The notes under the pieces are model-generated. The model saw only the letters and a list, made by a program, of their open reading frames with translations. It made no database searches and had not been told where the DNA came from. Made by a program: the position numbers and the translations under genes. From Sporosarcina trichiuri (GTDB lineage: Bacteria; Bacillota; Bacilli; Bacillales_A; Planococcaceae): DNA of 64,000 nt. The DNA is taken from contig NZ_CP129119.1 in the NCBI RefSeq assembly GCF_030406775.1, positions 2,635,501 to 2,699,500 on the forward strand. The letters run 5' to 3'. This document shows positions 13,921-64,000 of the stretch, piece by piece (position 1 is the first letter of the stretch; the number at the start of each line of letters is the position of its first letter).

Positions 13921-14352
<432 letters not shown>

Positions 14353-38012: not shown

Positions 38013-39071
38013 TTGATGAAAGAAGAGAACATGCGTGAAGTCGTCGGGAAACTGAGCGATCCTTTTTTACATAAACCGTTGGCGGAAACAGGCGGCATCA
38101 TCAGTGTGTCGCTGAAGTCCGAGAAAAAACATGTGAGTGTAAAATTGGCCATTGCAAAGATCAACACCGCCGAACAGATGGCATTGCAGTCGAAAGTCGT
38201 GGAAGTGTTGAAAGCAGCGGGTGCCGATTCCGTCGGCATCCGGTTTGAGGAACTCCCGCAGGAAGCGATCGAGAAGTTCCGCGGTACAGCCACCGCGGCG
38301 GAAGCGCAGGATCTGCTGTCACCGCTGAATGATGTGACGTTCATCTCCATCGCATCCGGGAAAGGCGGCGTCGGCAAGTCGACGGTATCCGTCAACCTGG
38401 CAGTCGCGCTTGCGCGTCAAGGCAAGAAGGTCGGCCTGATCGACGCCGACATCTACGGATTCAGTGTACCGGATATGATGGGCGTCACGGAATCCCCAGT
38501 CATCCGCGGAGACCGGATCATCCCGGTGGACCGGAAAGGCGTCAAGATGATCTCGATGGGCTTCTTTGTGGAAGACAATGCCCCTGTCGTCTGGCGGGGA
38601 CCGATGCTCGGGAAAGTGCTTGATCAGTTTTTCCGTGACGTCGAGTGGGGGGATCTCGATTACATGATCCTCGACCTGCCGCCTGGCACAGGGGATGTCG
38701 CCCTCGATATCCACCAGATGATTCCGGCATCCAAGGAAATCGTCGTGACCACCCCTCATCCGACGGCTGCATTCGTTGCCGCACGGGCCGGAGCGATGGC
38801 CTTGCAGACAGATCATGCCCTGCTCGGTGTCATCGAAAATATGGCCTGGTTCGAATCGAAAACGACCGGTGAAAAGGAATATGTATTCGGTTCGGGCGGA
38901 GGGAAGCGCCTGGCGGAAGAACTCCGTACGGAATTGCTCGGCCAGATTCCGCTCGGTCAGCCGGATTGGGACGAAGAGGACTTCGCCCCTTCCGTCTATG
39001 CGGAGGACCACCCGATCGGAAAGACATACTTGGATATCGCTGCTAAAGTGATCGGTGAAACGAAGAAATGA
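38013..39071 (+). CDS. salA: Mrp/NBP35-family P-loop ATPase SalA
   Basis: A 352-residue protein: an N-terminal MIP18/DUF59-like domain (about residues 1-90), then a deviant Walker A P-loop (GKGGVGKST near residue 115) and a DLPPGTGD motif. Family members act as Fe-S carriers; in B. subtilis SalA represses scoC and so influences exoprotease genes. TTG 38013 and the adjacent ATG 38016 are both possible; AAGGAG (37998-38003) is 9 nt from the TTG and 12 from the ATG. Confidence 0.9.
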   Translation: MMKEENMREVVGKLSDPFLHKPLAETGGIISVSLKSEKKHVSVKLAIAKINTAEQMALQSKVVEVLKAAGADSVGIRFEELPQEAIEKFRGTATAAEAQDLLSPLNDVTFISIASGKGGVGKSTVSVNLAVALARQGKKVGLIDADIYGFSVPDMMGVTESPVIRGDRIIPVDRKGVKMISMGFFVEDNAPVVWRGPMLGKVLDQFFRDVEWGDLDYMILDLPPGTGDVALDIHQMIPASKEIVVTTPHPTAAFVAARAGAMALQTDHALLGVIENMAWFESKTTGEKEYVFGSGGGKRLAEELRTELLGQIPLGQPDWDEEDFAPSVYAEDHPIGKTYLDIAAKVIGETKK

Positions 39072-39075
39072 CGGA

Positions 39076-39112
39076 AAAGCGGAGCGGGTTACTGACCCCC
39101 TCCGCTTTCTTC
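39076..39112. terminator. Bidirectional terminator between salA and gerD
   Basis: AAAGCGGAG (39076-39084) pairs with CTCCGCTTT (39100-39108); TTCTTT follows on the plus side. It overlaps the last codons of gerD on the minus strand. Confidence 0.7.
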
Positions 39113-39688
39113 TTTGTCCTGGCCTTCCTGTTTGTCTTTTCCTTTATCCTTTTCCGTCGGTTTCACTTCGCCGGCCTGCAGGATGAGTTCCTGCCACTTG
39201 GCCTGGAGCAGCGGACTCTGGATCGTTTCCTCGATCGCTTTCTGGAACTCTTTCTTCAAGGAACCGGAATGCAGGATGTTTTCAAGCTGCTTCTGCATAT
39301 CCGGGGTGCCGAAGAACTCCTCCAGTTCTTTCTGGAAAGACGCATCGTCCATGAGTGCTTTCATGATCTCCTGTTGCTGGTCTTTCATGCTTTCTGCGAC
39401 GGTTTTCTGGAATTTCGGATCCTCGAACGTCTGTTTCCAGAACGTTTTTCCGTCGTCGGACAGCAGGGTGGTTTCGATGGCGGCGGTCACTTCGGGCTGC
39501 TCCAGTACGAGCTGTTTCCTGAATTCTTCTTCCGTCAGAAGCTGACGGATCGCTTTTTTCCCTTCTTCGGTCTGGATGGCGTCCGTCATCATCTTTTTCG
39601 TTTCATCGTACGAGGGGGGATTGGCCTGCTGCGTGCAGGCGGCGGTCAACAGAAGGACGGGAAGCAGAGATACTGTGAATTTTTTCAT
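39089..39688 (-). CDS. gerD: Spore germination lipoprotein GerD
   Basis: A 199-residue lipoprotein. The signal peptide MKKFTVSLLPVLLLTAAC ends in a lipobox (LTAAC), followed by a helical, Gln/Lys/Glu-rich body and a hydrophilic tail (KDKGKDKQEGQDKEESGGGQ). GerD organises germinant receptors into the germinosome in the spore inner membrane. ATG 39688 is chosen because it gives the lipoprotein signal; the frame extends ten codons upstream. Convergent with salA as in Bacillus. Confidence 0.88.
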   Translation of the reverse strand: MKKFTVSLLPVLLLTAACTQQANPPSYDETKKMMTDAIQTEEGKKAIRQLLTEEEFRKQLVLEQPEVTAAIETTLLSDDGKTFWKQTFEDPKFQKTVAESMKDQQQEIMKALMDDASFQKELEEFFGTPDMQKQLENILHSGSLKKEFQKAIEETIQSPLLQAKWQELILQAGEVKPTEKDKGKDKQEGQDKEESGGGQ

Positions 39689-39827
39689 GAGTGCAAGATC
39701 CCTCCGCAGGCTTTTCAATTATTGTTCACATCTTCCTGCCGATTATGCAAACGCTGTGTAATGAAATAGATTTTTCGGGAAATCGCTGGTACACTGGGTA
39801 CAGTAAGGAAAACGGGGGAACGCTGTT

Positions 39828-40505
39828 GTGACTATACGAAATTGGATAAAATTCTTTTTACGCGCGCTGCTGCTCGGCGGCGGGATCACCGGTCTGGTCG
39901 GTTTGATCGTACGCTGGGATTTCTTCTACTCATACTTATCATCGGGTGAGATTTTTCAATTCATCGGGGCACTGTTGTGGATGATCTTCCTGGGCTTCAC
40001 GATGAGTGTCATTGCCCAGATGGGCTTTTTTGCCTATCTGTCAGTACATCAATTCGGAGTTAACCTGTTCCGGACATTGACATTGTGGAACTGGGTGCAG
40101 CTGCTGCTGATTGTTGTCGTTTTGTTCGACCTGGTCTTTTTCCGTTTCCGTCTGACTGCGGATGATACCGGGCGTACTGTGCTCTATATGGTGCTTCTGT
40201 TCGTACTTGTCGGGACTGCAGCAGTGACGGCGTGGTTCAAGGCGAAATGGACGAAAAAACATATCCTCATATCGGCGCTGTTCTTCATGATCGTCATCAC
40301 GACGCTCGAATGGCTGCCTGCACTGATGGTGCGTAAAGGCGAAGTCGATACATGGGTGACGATCATGCTGTTCCCGCTCGTGGCGGTGAATGCCTATCAG
40401 CTTCTCGCGCTTCCGAAGTACAATCGGAAGTCGGATGAAGATAAGGCGAAACTCGACGCCCGGAAAGCGGAGCGTCGGAAACAGAAAGCGGTAAAAGTGA
40501 AATGA
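39828..40505 (+). CDS. kbaA: KinB-signalling activation protein KbaA
   Basis: A 225-residue membrane protein with six hydrophobic segments and a basic cytoplasmic tail. Sequence and position (gerD-kbaA-pdaB order) match KbaA, which activates the KinB branch of the sporulation phosphorelay. The tail (KAERRKQKAVKVK) makes it longer than the roughly 198 residues of B. subtilis. It starts at GTG 39828 behind GGGGGA. Confidence 0.85.
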   Translation: MTIRNWIKFFLRALLLGGGITGLVGLIVRWDFFYSYLSSGEIFQFIGALLWMIFLGFTMSVIAQMGFFAYLSVHQFGVNLFRTLTLWNWVQLLLIVVVLFDLVFFRFRLTADDTGRTVLYMVLLFVLVGTAAVTAWFKAKWTKKHILISALFFMIVITTLEWLPALMVRKGEVDTWVTIMLFPLVAVNAYQLLALPKYNRKSDEDKAKLDARKAERRKQKAVKVK

Positions 40506-40511
40506 CAAGAG

Positions 40512-40542
40512 GCGCACATCCACAGCGGATTGTGCGCTTTTA
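40512..40542. terminator. Terminator after kbaA
   Basis: GCGCACATCC (40512-40521) pairs with GGATTGTGCGC (40527-40537) and is followed by TTTTATT. It lies between convergent genes. Confidence 0.75.
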
Positions 40543-40543
40543 T

Positions 40544-41203
40544 TCATTCCGGTATTTTTTTGGTCTTGATGTCCACCGTAAACAGGACGTCTTCGACGGA
40601 TTGGAACTGACGGCTTGCGAGCAGCTCATTCACTTCATCAAGGGACACCAGCTGACGACGGTCGAGTGACACGGCGATGATATCTCCTTCCTTCACTTTA
40701 GGAAGGACGCCGCCTCTCCAGCGGGTGGAGGATCCTAACGCGTTGATCTCTTTTTCCCACAGCACATCTCTCAGGACTTTCGGAAAGTACTCATCCTGTG
40801 TTCGGAACCAGAGCGGTTTCTTCTCGAAAATCCCGGTGAAGTGTTCCAGCTGGCGGTTGAACCGGGCAGGGTCTTCCTCATATGAGGCGCCGGGCTCACC
40901 GAGAAGGGAGATCGGTATGTTTTTTTCCTTGATAAGCTGTGCGGAATCGGGGAATCGTTCTGCCCAGGCCGGATCGATCATCAGCAGCGGATAGGGTGCC
41001 GAGAGCCCGGCGATCCATTCCTCGACCGGCTCGTCGCCGAACGACAGATCAATCGTCAGTGAGGTGCCTTTTGTTCCTTTGACAATGACATCCGGTCCGC
41101 TCGCGGCGCGGAATACATCAATCATTTTCGGTGCAGTGTTTGCAGCAGGCAGGAGGATGACAAGAAGTATGCAGACCAGTATGGCGATACCTATTCTTTT
41201 CAG
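40544..41203 (-). CDS. PdaB-like polysaccharide deacetylase-fold protein, degenerate, apparent CTG start
   Basis: The first ATG (41125) gives 193 residues without a signal peptide. Extending 26 codons to CTG at 41203-41201 adds a signal sequence, (M)KRIGIAILVCILLVILLPAA, and that CTG has AAAGGAG 9 nt upstream. An in-frame TGA lies nine codons before the ATG-to-CTG extension, leaving no ATG, GTG or TTG in that stretch. The body resembles PdaB (TIDLSFGDE for TFDISWGDE; WAERFPD for WAERHPD), and position after kbaA agrees. The metal-binding histidines of NodB-type deacetylases are not seen, so catalysis is doubtful. Confidence 0.65.
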   Translation of the reverse strand: MKRIGIAILVCILLVILLPAANTAPKMIDVFRAASGPDVIVKGTKGTSLTIDLSFGDEPVEEWIAGLSAPYPLLMIDPAWAERFPDSAQLIKEKNIPISLLGEPGASYEEDPARFNRQLEHFTGIFEKKPLWFRTQDEYFPKVLRDVLWEKEINALGSSTRWRGGVLPKVKEGDIIAVSLDRRQLVSLDEVNELLASRQFQSVEDVLFTVDIKTKKIPE

Positions 41204-41323
41204 CGCGGCGGGCTCCTTTCAACTCGGTTACTGTACTGTATGAGAAAGGCTTGACCAGTATGCGCGGCCCATGCTATTATGTAAAAGTCCTGAAGAGGAA
41301 AAGACAGTGTGTACAGAAAAGGC

Positions 41324-41351
41324 TTGCTTTCCTGTCCGACTGTGTTATAAT
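41324..41351 (+). promoter_or_regulatory. Promoter of the tRNA cluster
   Basis: TTGCTT (41324-41329), 16-nt spacer, perfect TATAAT (41346-41351), 33 nt before the first tRNA. Confidence 0.75.
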
Positions 41352-41383
41352 TTTTCTTGTCTTTGAAATAACATTCATATGAT

Positions 41384-41458
41384 TCCGCAGTAGCTCAGTG
41401 GTAGAGCAATCGGCTGTTAACCGATCGGTCGTAGGTTCGAGTCCTACCTGCGGAGCCA
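41384..41458 (+). tRNA. tRNA-Asn (GTT)
   Basis: 75 nt with encoded CCA. Acceptor TCCGCAG pairs with CTGCGGA; the anticodon loop contains CTGTTAA (GTT); the T loop is GTTCGAGTC. Confidence 0.97.
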
Positions 41459-41471
41459 TTTCCATGCGCAT

Positions 41472-41547
41472 GCTTCCATAGCTCAGCAGGTAGAGTGCTT
41501 CCATGGTAAGGAAGAGGTCACCGGTTCGAATCCGGTTGGAAGCTCCA
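41472..41547 (+). tRNA. tRNA-Thr (GGT)
   Basis: 76 nt with encoded CCA. Acceptor GCTTCCA pairs with TGGAAGC; anticodon GGT sits in CTTCCATGGTAAGGAAG. Confidence 0.96.
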
Positions 41548-41578
41548 GAATGCAATCAGACTGTATACATACCAGAAC

Positions 41579-41653
41579 GGCCCCTTGGTCAAGCGGTTAA
41601 GACACCGCCCTTTCACGGCGGTAACACGGGTTCGAATCCCGTAGGGGTCACCA
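41579..41653 (+). tRNA. tRNA-Glu (TTC)
   Basis: 75 nt with encoded CCA. Acceptor GGCCCCT pairs with AGGGGTC (one G-U); the anticodon arm CCGCCCTTTCACGGCGG carries TTC. Confidence 0.97.
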
Positions 41654-41721
41654 TGTTTGTTCCTTTACATACCGATAAGCGATGTTGCCATGCACGCTTA
41701 TCAGCTCAGGACGACTCAGAT

Positions 41722-41806
41722 GGTGGGGTAGCGAAGTGGCTAAACGCGGCGGACTGTAAATCCGCTCCCTCCGGGTTCGGCGGTTCGAATCCGTCCCCCA
41801 CCACCA
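41722..41806 (+). tRNA. tRNA-Tyr (GTA)
   Basis: 85 nt with a long variable arm and encoded CCA. Acceptor GGTGGGG pairs with CCCCACC; the anticodon loop ACTGTAAAT carries GTA. Confidence 0.97.
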
Positions 41807-41891
41807 TTTTACTTGAATAAAAACTGCAGAAAAGGGTATTCTCTAAATGTGCCGGACAAAGGTGCAGGGAACAGCCGCTTTTTTTGATTAC

Positions 41892-41966
41892 TGGGGTATA
41901 GCCAAGCGGTAAGGCAACGGACTTTGACTCCGTCACTCGTTGGTTCGAATCCAGCTACCCCAGCCA
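41892..41966 (+). tRNA. tRNA-Gln (TTG)
   Basis: 75 nt with encoded CCA. Acceptor TGGGGTA pairs with TACCCCA; the anticodon loop ACTTTGACT carries TTG. Confidence 0.97.
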
Positions 41967-42084
41967 CTTTTACTTGCATGGCACACCTGATGAGATGTAA
42001 AAATACATGCTTCTGAAGAGACTTTCAGCTGCTCAGCAATGGAATGTATAGCTGAGATGCCGATATCTATACTGTATAGTAACT

Positions 42085-59956: not shown

Positions 59957-60802
59957 ATGAAGCTGTCCGAGGTGTGGGAAAACTACTGCACCGACAAGAA
60001 GATCGAGGGGTTCTCTTCAGCGACGCTGAAAATGTACGGCTACCAGCACAATCTGCTGCAGCGGTACTTGGGGGACCTGCAGGCGGAGGAGGTGACAGCG
60101 GACGAATTGAAATCTTATTTGGCCGAAGCGGCAGAGTACCTGAAGCCATCCAGTCTCGGCCACCGGGTCCGGTTCGTCCGCTCACTTTTCAGATGGGCGC
60201 ACGAAGAAGGCATCATCCGGAAAAACCCGGCGGCCAAGCTGAAGGAGCCGAAAGCCGGGAAACGGGTGCCAAAGTTCCTGACCAAGCAGGACATCGAATA
60301 CTTACGGGAAGCGTGCCGGACAGCAAAAGAAAAGGCGATCTTCGAATTCTTCTACTCGACCGGCTGCCGGATCGGCGAAGTGGCGGCGCTGGATCGGCTG
60401 GATATTGACTTCGGCACGAACTCGGTCATCGTCCGCGGGAAAGGGGACAGGGAACGGGAAGTCTATTTCAGCATCCGCTGCGCAATCTGGCTGAAACGCA
60501 GCCTGCAGGAACGATCAGACAGCGAACCGTGCCTGTTCACGACAACCCGGAAACCGATCAGACGGATGAGCATCGACTCCCTGCGGTATGTCATCCGGCA
60601 GATTTCCGAGCGGTCCGTATTGACGAAAACCATCCATCCACATCAGCTGCGTCATAGTTATGCGACGCACATGATCGACAACGGCGCACCGCTCGAAGTG
60701 ATCCAAAGCCTCCTGGGTCATGAAAAGAGTGAAACCACCAAGATCTATGCACAACTGAGCGGAAAACTGCGCTATGATCTGTACAACCGATATTTTCCAT
60801 GA
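59957..60802 (+). CDS. Tyrosine recombinase/integrase (XerC/D-like)
   Basis: A 281-residue site-specific recombinase. An N-terminal SAM-like core-binding domain (about residues 1-90) precedes the catalytic domain. The full R-K-H-R-H-Y set is visible: GCRIGE (Arg about 137), RGKGDRE (Lys about 161), HPHQLRHSY (His and Arg about 225-228), LLGHEK (His about 254) and KIYAQL (Tyr about 263). It lacks an obvious IntI-specific insertion. GAGGAG precedes ATG 59957; the longer frame from 59882 is less likely. Its codon use is GC-rich like the upstream chromosome, unlike the AT-rich cassette genes after it. Confidence 0.9.
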   Translation: MKLSEVWENYCTDKKIEGFSSATLKMYGYQHNLLQRYLGDLQAEEVTADELKSYLAEAAEYLKPSSLGHRVRFVRSLFRWAHEEGIIRKNPAAKLKEPKAGKRVPKFLTKQDIEYLREACRTAKEKAIFEFFYSTGCRIGEVAALDRLDIDFGTNSVIVRGKGDREREVYFSIRCAIWLKRSLQERSDSEPCLFTTTRKPIRRMSIDSLRYVIRQISERSVLTKTIHPHQLRHSYATHMIDNGAPLEVIQSLLGHEKSETTKIYAQLSGKLRYDLYNRYFP

Positions 60803-60838
60803 AAATTTGGAGGAAATGAGATTTTTGAATAGTCGGTA

Positions 60839-60847
60839 TGATAGAAT
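60839..60847 (+). promoter_or_regulatory. Extended -10 element reading into the cassette array
   Basis: TG-A-TAGAAT, about 55 nt after the recombinase stop and 58 nt before the first GGGCCA box. No good -35 at the right distance. Confidence 0.4.
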
Positions 60848-60899
60848 GGAAGCAGAGTACCAGGTTTTGAGGAGGAGTCAGAGAGCGTCGACTCTTCCA

Positions 60900-60912
60900 C
60901 AAACGGGCCAGT
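60900..60912. repeat. Array boundary copy A (right half only)
   Basis: CAAACGGGCCAGT, with GGGCCA at 60905-60910. The hairpin left arm is not recognisable; the preceding sequence has only a short inverted repeat (AGAG...CTCT, about 60883-60896). It marks the start of the array. Confidence 0.6.
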
Positions 60913-60950
60913 TAGCTAAGTAATGGCAAATAACTTCAAGGAGATAAAAT

Positions 60951-61145
60951 ATGGAAATATTATACGCTTTCTTGTATTGGATAGGATGGTGGTTGATGCC
61001 TATTTGGTGCATTATATTCTGTTTGAATTTGGTTTCTATATTAAAAAAGGTAAAACATGAAGAAAAAACGACAGCAAATACAGTTTGGCTTATTATATCG
61101 TTTACGATTATTATGTGGACTACTGCGTCCATGGGCTTTAGTTAA
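60951..61145 (+). CDS. Small two-helix membrane protein (cassette 1)
   Basis: A 64-residue protein with two hydrophobic segments (about residues 5-29 and 44-62) joined by a short basic loop (KKVKHEEKTT). Aromatic-rich N-terminus with several Trp. AAGGAG sits about 10 nt before ATG 60951. The stop codon ends 3 nt before boundary copy B. No family is recognised. Confidence 0.7.
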   Translation: MEILYAFLYWIGWWLMPIWCIIFCLNLVSILKKVKHEEKTTANTVWLIISFTIIMWTTASMGFS

Positions 61146-61148
61146 ACT

Positions 61149-61192
61149 AACGGGGGCAATTCTGGAATAAGGATTGTGCCGTTAAAGGGCCA
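61149..61192. repeat. Array boundary copy B (most complete hairpin)
   Basis: Left arm AACGGGGGCAAT (61149-61160), loop TCTGGAATAAGG, right arm ATTGTGCCGTT (61173-61183), then AAA and GGGCCA (61187-61192). The arms pair as two 5-bp blocks around a 2-by-1 internal loop. It starts 3 nt after the cassette 1 stop. Confidence 0.75.
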
Positions 61193-61221
61193 GATAAAAA
61201 CGAAGTAGAGGAGTAACTAAA

Positions 61222-61413
61222 TTGAAAAAGTATTATGCCTTTCACTCTTTAATCGTTGTAATTTTCATTGTCGTGCTGCTTTACAGTCTCATGAATAAAA
61301 TGTTTATTCCAGTTTTAATTACAGCAATAATCGGGATATTTTTAATGCTTTTAAATCACAAGAAAAATCATCCTCACAGCAAATCTGGAAATGCTAGAAT
61401 GAGCAAAAATTAA
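61222..61413 (+). CDS. Small membrane protein (cassette 2)
   Basis: A 63-residue protein starting at TTG 61222 with GTAGAGGAG upstream. Two adjacent hydrophobic stretches (about residues 8-26 and 28-44) precede a basic His/Lys-rich tail (NHKKNHPHSKSGNARMSKN). Function unknown. Confidence 0.68.
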   Translation: MKKYYAFHSLIVVIFIVVLLYSLMNKMFIPVLITAIIGIFLMLLNHKKNHPHSKSGNARMSKN

Positions 61414-61439
61414 TAAAAGAACTTTTAATACTTTTCATA

Positions 61440-61506
61440 AACGGGCGCAATTGTAGCACAAGAAGTTATGGGGGTGGCGATTGCCATCTCTTTTTTATTT
61501 GGACCA
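61440..61506. repeat. Array boundary copy C (diverged, long spacer)
   Basis: AACGGGCGCAAT (61440-61451) matches the left arm; the right arm and box are diverged (GGCGATTGCC 61477-61486 and GGACCA 61501-61506). A separate hairpin (GGTGGC...GCCATC) with a T-rich tract lies within, probably a terminator. Confidence 0.5.
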
Positions 61507-61641
61507 ATGCAAAGTAACACTCAAAACAGGTGAGAATTAACTCCTAAAGTGACAACTCACAGCAATCTTTGGATTACAAATTAAAAAGTTGCATCTTTTT
61601 TCAACCATTCACTCTCTAATAGATAGGACGGTGAAAAGATA

Positions 61642-62181
61642 ATGGGGTATGAAAAGAAAGTCATAAAAGCAATCGGGGGAGATCGCGAGGCCCTATTGTA
61701 TTTAATTCAACAGCAAAAAGAGAAGATTTATCGAACTGGCTATAGCTATGTCGGAAATAAACCTGATGCATTAGACATATTCCAGCAAACAGCACTCTTA
61801 GCCATAGAGTCAATCCATCAGCTTAGAGAACCAAGGTACTTCTCAACCTGGCTAATGAAAATTTGTATTAATGTATCGCTTGATGTGCTACAAAAACAAA
61901 AGAAAATTGTTCTAATGGATGATCTGAAAATGCAATCCTACAGCATGACCAACACAAAATCCGATGAAAAAATAGATTTGCTAAATGCAATCTACCACTT
62001 AGACGAGAAATATAAAACTGTATTGATTCTGAAGTATTATGAAGACTTAACGTTTGAACAAATAGCAAATGCACTTGATGAGCCACTCGGTACTGTAAAG
62101 TCAAATGGCAAAAGAGGTTTATCAAAACTTAAAACTATGTTAAAAGGAGTGTATACAGATGAACGAGCAAAATCGTTTTAA
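61642..62181 (+). CDS. ECF-type RNA polymerase sigma factor (cassette 3)
   Basis: A 179-residue ECF sigma factor. Region 2 includes NKPDALDIFQQTALLAIESI and FSTWLMKICINV; region 4 includes YYEDLTFEQIANALDEPLGT and VKSNGKRGLSKLK. It is unrelated in detail to SigW at 45.5 kb and is much more AT-rich. ATG 61642 has a weak site. It overlaps the next gene by 23 nt, so the two are co-translated, typical of sigma/anti-sigma pairs. No clear autoregulatory promoter was found in the 140-nt leader. Confidence 0.85.
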   Translation: MGYEKKVIKAIGGDREALLYLIQQQKEKIYRTGYSYVGNKPDALDIFQQTALLAIESIHQLREPRYFSTWLMKICINVSLDVLQKQKKIVLMDDLKMQSYSMTNTKSDEKIDLLNAIYHLDEKYKTVLILKYYEDLTFEQIANALDEPLGTVKSNGKRGLSKLKTMLKGVYTDERAKSF

Positions 62182-63169
62182 AGAAGCACTTAATGAAATA
62201 CCTGTGCCTTCGGAAGAGCTGGAACTAATTTTAGATAAAGCTTTTGGAAAGAAAAAACGGAGAAAAGTTACATTTAAGAGAGCGCTTAAATACACATCTG
62301 CCGTGGCGATTCTCTCTCTATGTACGATTTCTTCTGCATATGTCTCTCCGGCATTTGCAAAATTTGTTACTCAAATACCAGTGGTGGGTTATGCTTTTGA
62401 TCACTTTATTTTACAGGAAGATTATTATCGAGCATATGAAGAGGTTAGTACTGATCTCGGGTTAGTTTCAAAAAGTAAGGGGATTGATATTACAATCGAG
62501 AAAGCTTTTTACGACGGGAATGTGGTCACACTATCCTTTACAGTTAAGTCAGATCAGGATTTAGGGAAATTACCTCTGTCTGAGGAGCCGACTATAAATA
62601 ATAAAAGAAGTGCAGGAGGGTATGAAGGCGAATATGTAGATGGAATTGGATTTGTTGGTATGATGAAATTGAAAAGTCCGGAAAAACAAAAGGACATAGT
62701 GAACATTTCGTGGGAGCCTAAAGTAGTTCTTCCTGATGAAACAGAACTTGAAGGCGATTGGAACTTCGCCTTCTCTTTAAATGCACTGGATGGAACATTT
62801 ATTCCTATCAAAAAAAGTGTTAGCGCAGAAGGCGTGACGGTAGAATTAATAGATGCAGTAAAAACAGATGTCAACTTATCAATCAATTATCTACAAGATG
62901 TGGATCCTTCTGTTCATGATGATTGGATGGCTGTTGAAGCAGAGTTAAGTGCAATCGATAATTTAGGAAAAGAATACAAAGTACCATATAACGGCGGAGT
63001 AGGAACGGCAGGTGCGGATTCTGGTGAAGATATAACATGGAATGCAACGGTAAATGGGCTTAATCCGAAAGCAACATCCATTACATTCTATCCATTTGCG
63101 CATGCGAGCAATAGTCAAAGCGATTCTAAACGGATTGACTTTGAACCTATTACAGTCGAGTTGAAATAG
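62159..63169 (+). CDS. Probable membrane anti-sigma factor with DUF4179-like domain
   Basis: A 336-residue single-pass protein: a cytoplasmic N-terminal segment of about 42 residues, one transmembrane helix (about 43-62) and a large extracytoplasmic beta-rich region. The N-terminal layout and the pairing with an ECF sigma factor fit the DUF4179 family of anti-sigma regulators. There is no HxxxCxxC zinc motif. AAAAGGAG precedes ATG 62159. Confidence 0.75.
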   Translation: MNEQNRFKEALNEIPVPSEELELILDKAFGKKKRRKVTFKRALKYTSAVAILSLCTISSAYVSPAFAKFVTQIPVVGYAFDHFILQEDYYRAYEEVSTDLGLVSKSKGIDITIEKAFYDGNVVTLSFTVKSDQDLGKLPLSEEPTINNKRSAGGYEGEYVDGIGFVGMMKLKSPEKQKDIVNISWEPKVVLPDETELEGDWNFAFSLNALDGTFIPIKKSVSAEGVTVELIDAVKTDVNLSINYLQDVDPSVHDDWMAVEAELSAIDNLGKEYKVPYNGGVGTAGADSGEDITWNATVNGLNPKATSITFYPFAHASNSQSDSKRIDFEPITVELK

Positions 63170-63233
63170 TGGTGGGAGTGCCTTCTATTACATTGGAGAT
63201 AAATGTGCTCTTACAATAGTCAGTGTTGTTCCT

Positions 63234-63252
63234 CTCAATCGGGCCATTTTAC
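63234..63252. repeat. Array boundary copy D (box conserved, hairpin decayed)
   Basis: CTCAATCGGGCCATTTTAC with GGGCCA at 63241-63246. The 70 nt before it hold only a weak ACATT/AATGT hairpin instead of the arms of copies B and E. Confidence 0.5.
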
Positions 63253-63321
63253 AGTATAAGATGGTAATGAAATTAACCTCCAAGTGTACGTATTCTGTTT
63301 GAGTCAAGGGAGTGAATAAAA

Positions 63322-63576
63322 TTGGACAAAATAAAGAATGGCGTTTTTATTTTTTTAGGCATTAGTGTCTTGCTTGCGGGTGGATTTATTTCGAGCGGTC
63401 TCAGTGAGGTTGCTGAAAGTATTAATCAACAGGACACGCCAGTTGATGACTCACAGAGAATGATCGTCCAAGATGGAGTTATGTACATGTATGACACAAT
63501 TACGGGCGAAGTTTGGAAAAAGGAAGATAAAACCGGATCTAAGTGGGAAGAGGTCAAGAGAGCTTTTGAATATTAA
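63322..63576 (+). CDS. Small membrane-anchored protein (cassette 4)
   Basis: An 84-residue protein starting at TTG 63322 after AAGGGAG. One hydrophobic helix (about residues 6-26) is followed by an exposed domain with VQDGVMYMYDTITGEVWKKE. Function unknown. Confidence 0.65.
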   Translation: MDKIKNGVFIFLGISVLLAGGFISSGLSEVAESINQQDTPVDDSQRMIVQDGVMYMYDTITGEVWKKEDKTGSKWEEVKRAFEY

Positions 63577-63591
63577 ATAACTAAGAGATAA

Positions 63592-63641
63592 TTGGGCGCA
63601 ATTCTTGAAGAAGGATTTGCGCTTTTTCAACAATAGGGCCA
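63592..63641. repeat. Array boundary copy E
   Basis: GGGCGCAAT (63594-63602), loop TCTTGAAGAAGG (63603-63614), ATTTGCGC (63615-63622), a T run, CAACAATA and GGGCCA (63636-63641). The stem pairs seven bases with one bulge. The loop shares eight of twelve bases with copy B. Confidence 0.75.
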
Positions 63642-63665
63642 TTTAAATAAATTAGGAGGGTAATT

Positions 63666-64000
63666 ATGAGAGTGAATTCAAATCCACCAAACACTTTAGG
63701 GTACTTTGGTTTTTGGAAAAACGAAGAAAAGAGCGAAGGTATTTCAGCATTATTTTTAGATGATGATGATGAAAAGAAAGCAAGCGGGAAACCTAAGTTT
63801 GAAATAAGAAACGAAGATGGTTATATTCGCAAGTATGTTGTGAAAGCAAATGGAGATAAAATACTTGTTATGGAAACCAAACAACAAGAAAATCCCGATG
63901 GTACAGTGCAAAACGAATCGGGAGATTTAATTGACATGGCTCATGATATGTTGATGAAACAGCTTGAGTTTTCTGATGTTAATCTGCCTAAATTCGATAA
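63666..64000 (+). CDS. Unknown acidic protein, 3' end outside window (cassette 5)
   Basis: An open frame from ATG 63666 runs to the window end without a stop (111 complete codons). It has an AGGAGGG site 9 nt upstream. The product begins MRVNSNPPNTLGYFGFWKN, contains an acidic run (DDDDEKK) and no membrane segment. No family is recognised. Confidence 0.7.
   Translation, partial: MRVNSNPPNTLGYFGFWKNEEKSEGISALFLDDDDEKKASGKPKFEIRNEDGYIRKYVVKANGDKILVMETKQQENPDGTVQNESGDLIDMAHDMLMKQLEFSDVNLPKFD

Follow-up and report, generated by a model that had tools for sequence, protein, structure and literature searches.

Does the row of small genes that lies directly 3' of a tyrosine recombinase gene in the chromosome of Sporosarcina trichiuri form an array of exchangeable gene cassettes and, if it does, is it an integron or something else? 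The question is raised by a 64,000-nucleotide stretch (hereafter the window; positions 2,635,501-2,699,500 in a genome of 3.06 Mb assembled as one contig), in which these genes are separated by short boxes. From the comparisons described below it is proposed, with a probability of roughly 0.83, that boxes, small genes and recombinase belong to a gene-cassette exchange platform of Bacilli, which would be integron-like in its working and apparently independent of integrons. As judged from the sites detected by sequence profiles and patterns, the cassette system is widespread in Bacilli, occurring both chromosomally and on plasmids in Sporosarcina, Peribacillus and others.

Exchange between two boxes beside the recombinase gene

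A preliminary description of the locus had singled out a complete tyrosine recombinase followed by a drop to AT-rich DNA, and both observations stand: the gene is intact (59957-60802), and the guanine plus cytosine (GC) content falls from ~53% to 34-38% directly 3' of it, the low-GC stretch ending ~1.3 kb past the window. It had also been proposed that the boxes are boundaries at which whole units are cleanly gained or lost, and this was borne out by comparison with the same locus of Sporosarcina koreensis S-K12 (L110), a strain treated as conspecific whose recombinase is 100% identical to that of the window. The left flanks of the two strains are 99.81% identical over 10,954 bp up to the last base of a GGGCCA core (60910), and the right flanks are 96.88% identical over 9,582 bp from the first base of a GGGCGC core (65288). 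Between the flanks, the window strain has 4,377 bp and S-K12 has 314 bp with one 90-amino acid (aa) open reading frame (ORF), an exact replacement in which the boxes are, to the base, the edges of exchange. The constant halves that bracket the array, the left one being ~100 bp past the recombinase stop codon, are inverted repeats: when rejoined, 11/12 positions are complementary, as compared with 6-7/12 for the four real junctions. Such a near-perfect palindrome is the pattern expected if units had been inserted into a single palindromic attachment site, and at the window locus the primary attachment site adjoins the recombinase gene. An untouched, empty attachment site was sought in 68 genomes of the genus, with no match other than the right half in the window itself.

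With respect to the layout, the initial count of five short units needs correction, in that an array of small units with boxes is present but it comprises six units over 4.4 kb (60905-65293 on the window scale; right end, L002:6793) and passes the window end. The units encode, in order, small hydrophobic proteins (first two units), a sigma factor paired with a DUF4179 protein, proteins of 84 and 130 aa, and the products of a two-ORF unit (176 and 130 aa). Box and hairpin, initially taken as one element, are separated into two site types: box1, with core GGGCGC, GGGGGC or GGGTGC, found 6-30 bp 3' of the stop codon in the five units with a clear box1, and box2, with core GGGCCA (GGGCCG once), found 5' of genes. 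The strongest hairpin (63596-63622, followed by five T) is a box1 fused with an intrinsic terminator; the element at 63594-63622 matches only itself at up to 3 mismatches, with 0 matches in 100 shuffles. The expectation of a GGGCCA box before each unit and, in the best copies, a hairpin after its stop codon is retained as far as the boxes around the small genes are concerned, and is abandoned for the sigma/anti-sigma unit, which lacks clear boxes. A site profile run on the window and its extension (78.5 kb) gave 7 matches of at least 9 bits, 3 of which are profile seeds and the two weakest of which score 9.6 and 10.7 bits; all are within the array and on the plus strand (reversed control, 0). 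The features of the locus are as follows.

59957-60802 (+): Xer-like tyrosine recombinase, 281 aa, intact, the proposed cassette recombinase (Phage_integrase PF00589, 7e-36)
60893-60922 (+): box2-type site, core GGGCCA at 60905-60910, 10.7 bits; its left part forms the constant left half of the attachment site, and S-K12 homology stops at 60910
60951-61145 (+): cassette 1, 64 aa, hydrophobic by eye; no family reaches the cut-off
61140-61169 (+): box1-type site, core GGGGGC at 61152-61157, 6 bp past the cassette 1 stop; box1-box2 pair 53.5 bits, profile seed
61175-61198 (+): box2-type site, core GGGCCA at 61187-61192, profile match
61222-61413 (+): cassette 2, 63 aa, hydrophobic by eye; DUF7649 below cut-off
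61431-61460 (+): box1-type site, core GGGCGC at 61443-61448, 19.5 bits; start of a stretch common to Paenibacillus crassostreae plasmids
61461-61555 (+): spacer in which inspection by eye shows a terminator-like hairpin and perhaps a decayed box2 (TGGACCA)
61642-62181 (+): cassette 3a, extracytoplasmic function (ECF) sigma factor, Sigma70_r2/r4
62159-63169 (+): cassette 3b, DUF4179/DUF5643 protein, probable anti-sigma factor
63229-63254 (+): box2-type site, core GGGCCA at 63241-63246, 9.6 bits
63322-63576 (+): cassette 4, 84 aa, no family
63582-63627 (+): box1-type site with terminator hairpin and T run, core GGGCGC at 63594-63599, hairpin at 63596-63622; box1-box2 pair 41 bits, profile seed
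63624-63653 (+): box2-type site, core GGGCCA at 63636-63641, profile match
63666-64000 (+): cassette 5, 130 aa, running on to 64058 past the window

Box arrays in related genomes and plasmids

The exact hairpin of the window, when sought in genome contigs, gave 0 matches. A loosened hairpin pattern matched in 14/151 genomes of the family (reversed control, 0), the window's own genome being unmatched, and a pattern for the window's dialect gave few matches per genome, in 17/299 genomes, which indicates that this dialect is less repetitive or more diverged. From the DNA around the recombinases of relatives a second dialect, b, was obtained, in which box1 is TTCAACTAAC-GGGTGC-TTTAGTTGAA and box2 is TTGAACTAAC-GnnGCAG-GTTAGTTTAA. 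In both dialects the sites read as palindromes formed by two 10-11-bp arms and a 6-7-bp core, where box1 (GGGYGC type) follows genes and box2 (GGGCCA, or GnnGCAG for the relatives) precedes them.

The best example of a long array is a 180-kb stretch of genome G129, with 117 box1 (114 on the plus strand) and 132 box2 sites (131 on the plus strand). Their order mostly alternates, with 100 box1-to-box2 steps (median, 61.5 bp) and 101 box2-to-box1 steps (median, 638 bp), along with 13 box1-to-box1 and 30 box2-to-box2 steps, and the repeated layout is box2, gene, box1, ~60 bp with a terminator, box2. Box1 falls within an ORF in 6/114 cases versus 68.5% of random points, and in 105/114 the nearest ORF 5' of it is on the same strand. 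Exactly one ORF of at least 50 aa is present in 70/101 of the box2-to-box1 intervals; over all 101, ORFs are 119 on the box strand and 25 on the opposite one. The arrays with variable genes anticipated for related genomes are thus found as long one-strand rows of gene-sized units. The 107 ORFs of at least 60 aa on the box strand of the G129 array gave hits to 66 Pfam families at E<=1e-5, with the main GNAT acetyltransferase model in 11 ORFs, NUDIX and MFS in 3 each, and APH and SUKH in 2 each; 18 PADLOC models were matched, 17 of them in one ORF each. Integron cassettes likewise carry accessory genes such as GNAT and NUDIX. A promoter-likeness scan of 64 segments for promoters at cassette starts gave no excess over shuffles.

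Array DNA was compared across 12 pieces from 7 genomes (511 kb), and homologous units were found to begin and end at boxes above chance. Within 157 matches of 200-4,000 bp, 89/420 unique ends are within 20 bp of box1 (300 shifts: mean 10.3, maximum 22) and a further 61/435 are at box2 only (shifted box2: mean 9.8, maximum 25). Eleven near-identical pairs were displayed; in seven of them boxes mark both ends and the flanks are unlike (99.2, 98.8, 98.7, 98.6, 98.1, 96.7 and 94.5% identity). All four ends are at boxes in 33 of 230 matches of 150-5,000 bp, 16 running from box1 to box2, 7 from box2 to box2, 4 from box2 to box1, 4 from box1 to box1 and 2 being mixed; these counts are not independent, since the 1-kb recombinase unit described below accounts for 8 of the 16 and all the box2-to-box2 matches are of 150-172 bp. 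On these alignments box1 and box2 both act as unit edges, and the boxes are very probably recombination boundaries.

The spacers between cassettes need to be considered separately. A hairpin followed by a T run was detected in 159/172 of the short box1-to-box2 spacers of all pieces, a count to be read against the 387/860 shuffles that also pass as base composition inflates it; the stretches 3' of box2 pass in 124/290 cases, no more often than the same shuffles. Such terminators, placed between cassettes, would speak against transcription running through the array from a single promoter. A terminator-like spacer 3' of box1 in most tested copies, along with the ability of repeats to recombine, might also lead one to regard the boxes as transcriptional or RNA elements (terminators or regulator sites) and the rearrangements as ordinary homologous recombination between repeats. 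Such an explanation is barely credible by taking into account the result for the stretches 3' of box2, the recurrence elsewhere in arrays of units with unlike flanks, and the S. koreensis breakpoints, which are within 6-bp cores between unlike arms, an identity too short for RecA-type exchange.

Plasmids also carry these sequences. An 81-bp stretch of G129 that comprises box1, spacer and box2 finds matches in 21 plasmids (Peribacillus, 10; Cytobacillus, 4; Sporosarcina, 2; other Bacillus relatives, five) and, partially, one phage. In a Peribacillus frigoritolerans plasmid, 28 boxes occur within 49 kb, all on one strand (reversed control, 0), and a plasmid stretch of another strain contains 27, split 20 to 7 between the two strands. 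At the small end, boxes enclose an ASCH-domain gene in a 6-kb mobV plasmid of Sporosarcina psychrophila, and a relative of cassette 5 (69% DNA identity over 215 bp) is found in Lysinibacillus macroides on a 6.6-kb mobV plasmid, where GGGTGC and terminator-like sequence come after it; small mobilizable plasmids could be cassette vehicles. The sigma factor of cassette 3a is 41% identical to that of a Peribacillus plasmid array, and identity with the two G129 proteins is 28% and 24%, so that the sigma/anti-sigma cassette is shared as a kind and not through recent transfer.

Other observations on mobile elements may be added. A gene-less stretch of ~116 bp (window 61439-61554), starting from the box1 core, is 87-88% kept in two Paenibacillus crassostreae plasmids (L144 and L145, ~1501-1617), its far end being away from a box. 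Elements of the IS110 family of insertion sequences (IS; L119:11851-13471, L126:40574-41807 and L127:2818-4457) have matched ends ~10-64 bp from the box core in several copies, a placement reminiscent of the IS elements that target attC sites. Group II introns are also found in the arrays (L120:21304-23282; L122:31736-33712 and 38200-41988), with stretches that are near-identical (99%) within one Peribacillus plasmid, and one match ends 42 bp from box1, where terminators lie. The plasmid L120 (CP053689.1), which is filed under the actinobacterium Arthrobacter citreus, encodes a 61%-identical recombinase and has two b-type box1 sites, indicating either a mislabelled host or spread past Bacilli. 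Two exact box1 sites are present in a 34.5-kb viral contig (L142/L143, IMGVR_UViG_2832286576_000003).

The recombinase and its link to the boxes

In the recombinase, residues R138, K162, H229, R232, H255 and Y264, which we take to be the catalytic R-K-H-R-H-Y set of tyrosine recombinases, are invariant in 29 aligned rows, the positions having been assigned via alignment with XerD. The nearest solved sequences and the top structural match (VIA-align comparison of a model) are Xer proteins. The curated NCBIfam cut-offs of the XerA/XerC/XerD models are missed (NF040815, 206.3/220 bits; TIGR02224, 197.7/335 bits; TIGR02225, 182.5/329.6 bits). LexA-type boxes sought 5' of the recombinase were found in 0/52 cases.

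A recognised box is near 32 of 48 recombinase loci (up to 1.6 kb before, or up to 400 bp after, the stop codon). Within 24 rows at 57-62% identity, box1 is 49-57 bp past the stop codon in 11 and box2 is 923-926 bp before it in 10, on the opposite strand; the recombinase gene of the b lineage occupies its own box-bounded unit of ~1 kb, which is recurrent. In the window's lineage (20 rows) a GGGCCA-type box is found on the same strand up to 400 bp past the stop codon in 8. When a tree of the 48 rows was calculated, with 16 rows unlabelled and the frame-shifted row L117 left out, the 17 opposite-strand box carriers were parted from the 15 same-strand ones by one branch (support, 97/94). At the level of genomes, at least 10 box1 copies are present in 19/25 family genomes with a b-type recombinase versus 7/126 without it (Fisher, 1.3e-13), and, across the class, at least 5 in 5/17 with versus 0/282 without a recombinase (3e-7), statistics uncorrected for shared ancestry, the limits of 10 and 5 boxes having been set post hoc; the 25 b-type genomes were counted by hand at 50-63% identity, fragments included. 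The recombinase search as such matches 58/151 family genomes at E<=1e-30, many of them through other paralogs. Recombinase relationships cross host genera, with Lentibacillus and Bacillus within the Sporosarcina group and G085, of the window's genus, in the b lineage, a pattern indicative of horizontal spread.

On this basis the linked recombinase is probably the enzyme acting at the boxes. The box geometry resembles that of dif sites (~11-6-11), Xer-site modules are known in Acinetobacter, and the recombinase subfamily is lacking in 7/26 box-rich genomes, so that the host XerC/XerD or some other recombinase might act on the boxes in the style of dif modules, the linked recombinase being a passenger. 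This alternative is considered unlikely: recombinase and boxes are statistically linked, the tree splits with box orientation, the gene recurs in a box-bounded unit in the b lineage, and box arrays are patchy whereas, to our knowledge, XerC/XerD are general in Bacilli. The dif/pdif modules of Acinetobacter plasmids, in which genes lie between short two-armed sites with a ~6-bp core and sites alternate in orientation around modules, are one of the nearest known parallels. They differ from the present arrays, which have a dedicated linked recombinase, two site types, a distribution in Bacilli and long one-strand rows, with 114/117 box1 and 131/132 box2 of G129 on one strand instead of an alternating orientation. 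With XerA, XerC and XerD the recombinase shares fold, catalytic residues and the simple two-domain layout; unlike them it is an accessory gene product of patchy distribution and horizontal spread, is linked to cassette boxes and scores below the curated Xer cut-offs.

Two observations concern more distant recombinases. A 40%-identical recombinase of Salibacterium salarium (L117) has stops in the frame read, and b-type boxes are nearby, all six on one strand; from this locus, the system may be older than the recombinase subfamily studied. Tandem clusters of tyrosine recombinases ~30-35% identical to the query are found at G092:C1:355204-359679, G032:C1:2606937-2611410 and G116:C55:122520-126937.

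Relation to integrons and a proposed mechanism

The similarity with integrons and superintegrons is evident in the recombinase gene beside a constant attachment site, in the one-orientation arrays of mostly single-gene units, with more than 100 units, and in the existence of arrays without recombinase. The pertinent passage of PMC3053210 gives attC sites a size of 57-141 bp, a range that includes the median of 90 bp of the box1-spacer-box2 composites, which are also similar in layout, and core sites RYYYAAC and GTTRRRY, from which left arms and box2 right arms differ by no more than one base in most copies, matches of 6/7 being common. Several recombinase relatives bear the NCBI name 'site-specific tyrosine recombinase/integron integrase', shared with model NF040815. 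The arrays could, then, be true integrons, or integrase-less attC clusters, overlooked by existing tools. This possibility is very improbable: the recombinase scores 86 bits with the integron integrase model (cut-off, 265 bits), Xer proteins are its nearest relatives of known structure as well as its top structural match, both attC core consensuses are perfect in 0/276 box1 and 0/291 box2, and covariation is missing within boxes and across box1-box2 composites.

The last point also fails to support the folded, integron-like hairpin that the preliminary description had considered as a possible boundary. Arm covariation within box1 (270 unique copies) is 7.51 versus 7.45 in shuffled sets, and |z| is <2 throughout box1, box2, four kinds of circle junctions and the box1-box2 composites, the largest value being 1.95 (box2). 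In its place there are two palindromic site types with exchange in short cores. The present arrays differ from integrons in an Xer-like enzyme that fails the IntI models, in short double-arm palindromes lacking attC consensus and sign of folding, in two alternating site types with a terminator-like spacer between them and, in one lineage, in a recombinase placed in a box-bounded unit. The likeness of the box1-spacer-box2 module to attC concerns size and layout, no cross-pairing covariation having been found in the module.

In the mechanism that is proposed, the Xer-like recombinase would bind both arms of a box as double-stranded DNA, and strand exchange across the 6-7-bp core would reassort arms between cassettes; the lack of arm covariation and the reassorted S. 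koreensis junctions fit exchange inside the core. Units would leave as circles and insert at boxes, chiefly at the attachment site beside the recombinase gene. A circle with a GGGCCA core entering a GGGCGC site would generate GGGCCA on the left and GGGCGC on the right, exactly as seen. The terminators would insulate cassettes from one another, and small mobilizable plasmids might ferry them.

Besides the limits of the association statistics given above, several points weigh against a cassette platform served by the linked recombinase. S-K12 is the sole same-species comparison, the second genome, G854, being S-K12 itself by coordinates. Some boxes of the window are weak, and a clear box2 is missing 5' of the sigma/anti-sigma unit, as is a clear box1 3' of it. 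Four of the 11 displayed near-identical pairs have just one end at a box, and 197/230 matches between array pieces do not reach boxes at all four ends. The circle-junction arm test, a prediction of the proposed mechanism, was negative in b-type arrays, where arms are perhaps too invariant. Finally, 16/48 recombinase loci are without a recognised box nearby, and 7/26 box-rich genomes are without a close recombinase.

By weighing these data, we consider it reasonably likely that Bacilli have independently evolved a second gene-cassette capture system, which reaches the scale of superintegrons, places two site types around a terminator for each cassette and uses double-stranded DNA as the substrate, the attC-like layout possibly hinting at the origin of attC or at convergence. 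No description of this system, box strings included, was found in the titles or abstract openings of the literature searched, the scope of which excluded preprints and most subscription journals. The passages of PMC9024848 on the IntegronFinder 2.0 genome set list one complete integron in Firmicutes plus few integrase-less clusters, and call unclear the reason for the rarity of integrons in some clades, Firmicutes included. Cassette arrays with another enzyme in Bacilli make this puzzle testable and could account for part of the accessory gene flow of the class. A second case of the origin of a cassette system would also provide a comparison for how attC arose and, possibly, a tool for ordered gene insertion in Gram-positive bacteria.

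Two minor features of the region remain to be mentioned. A 470-aa ORF (L002:9470-10882), IS-transposase-like by eye, lies ~2.7 kb past the right end of the array, and an S10-Clostridia ribosomal leader is matched at window 13931-14028 with 35.6 bits, the gathering score being 35.1.

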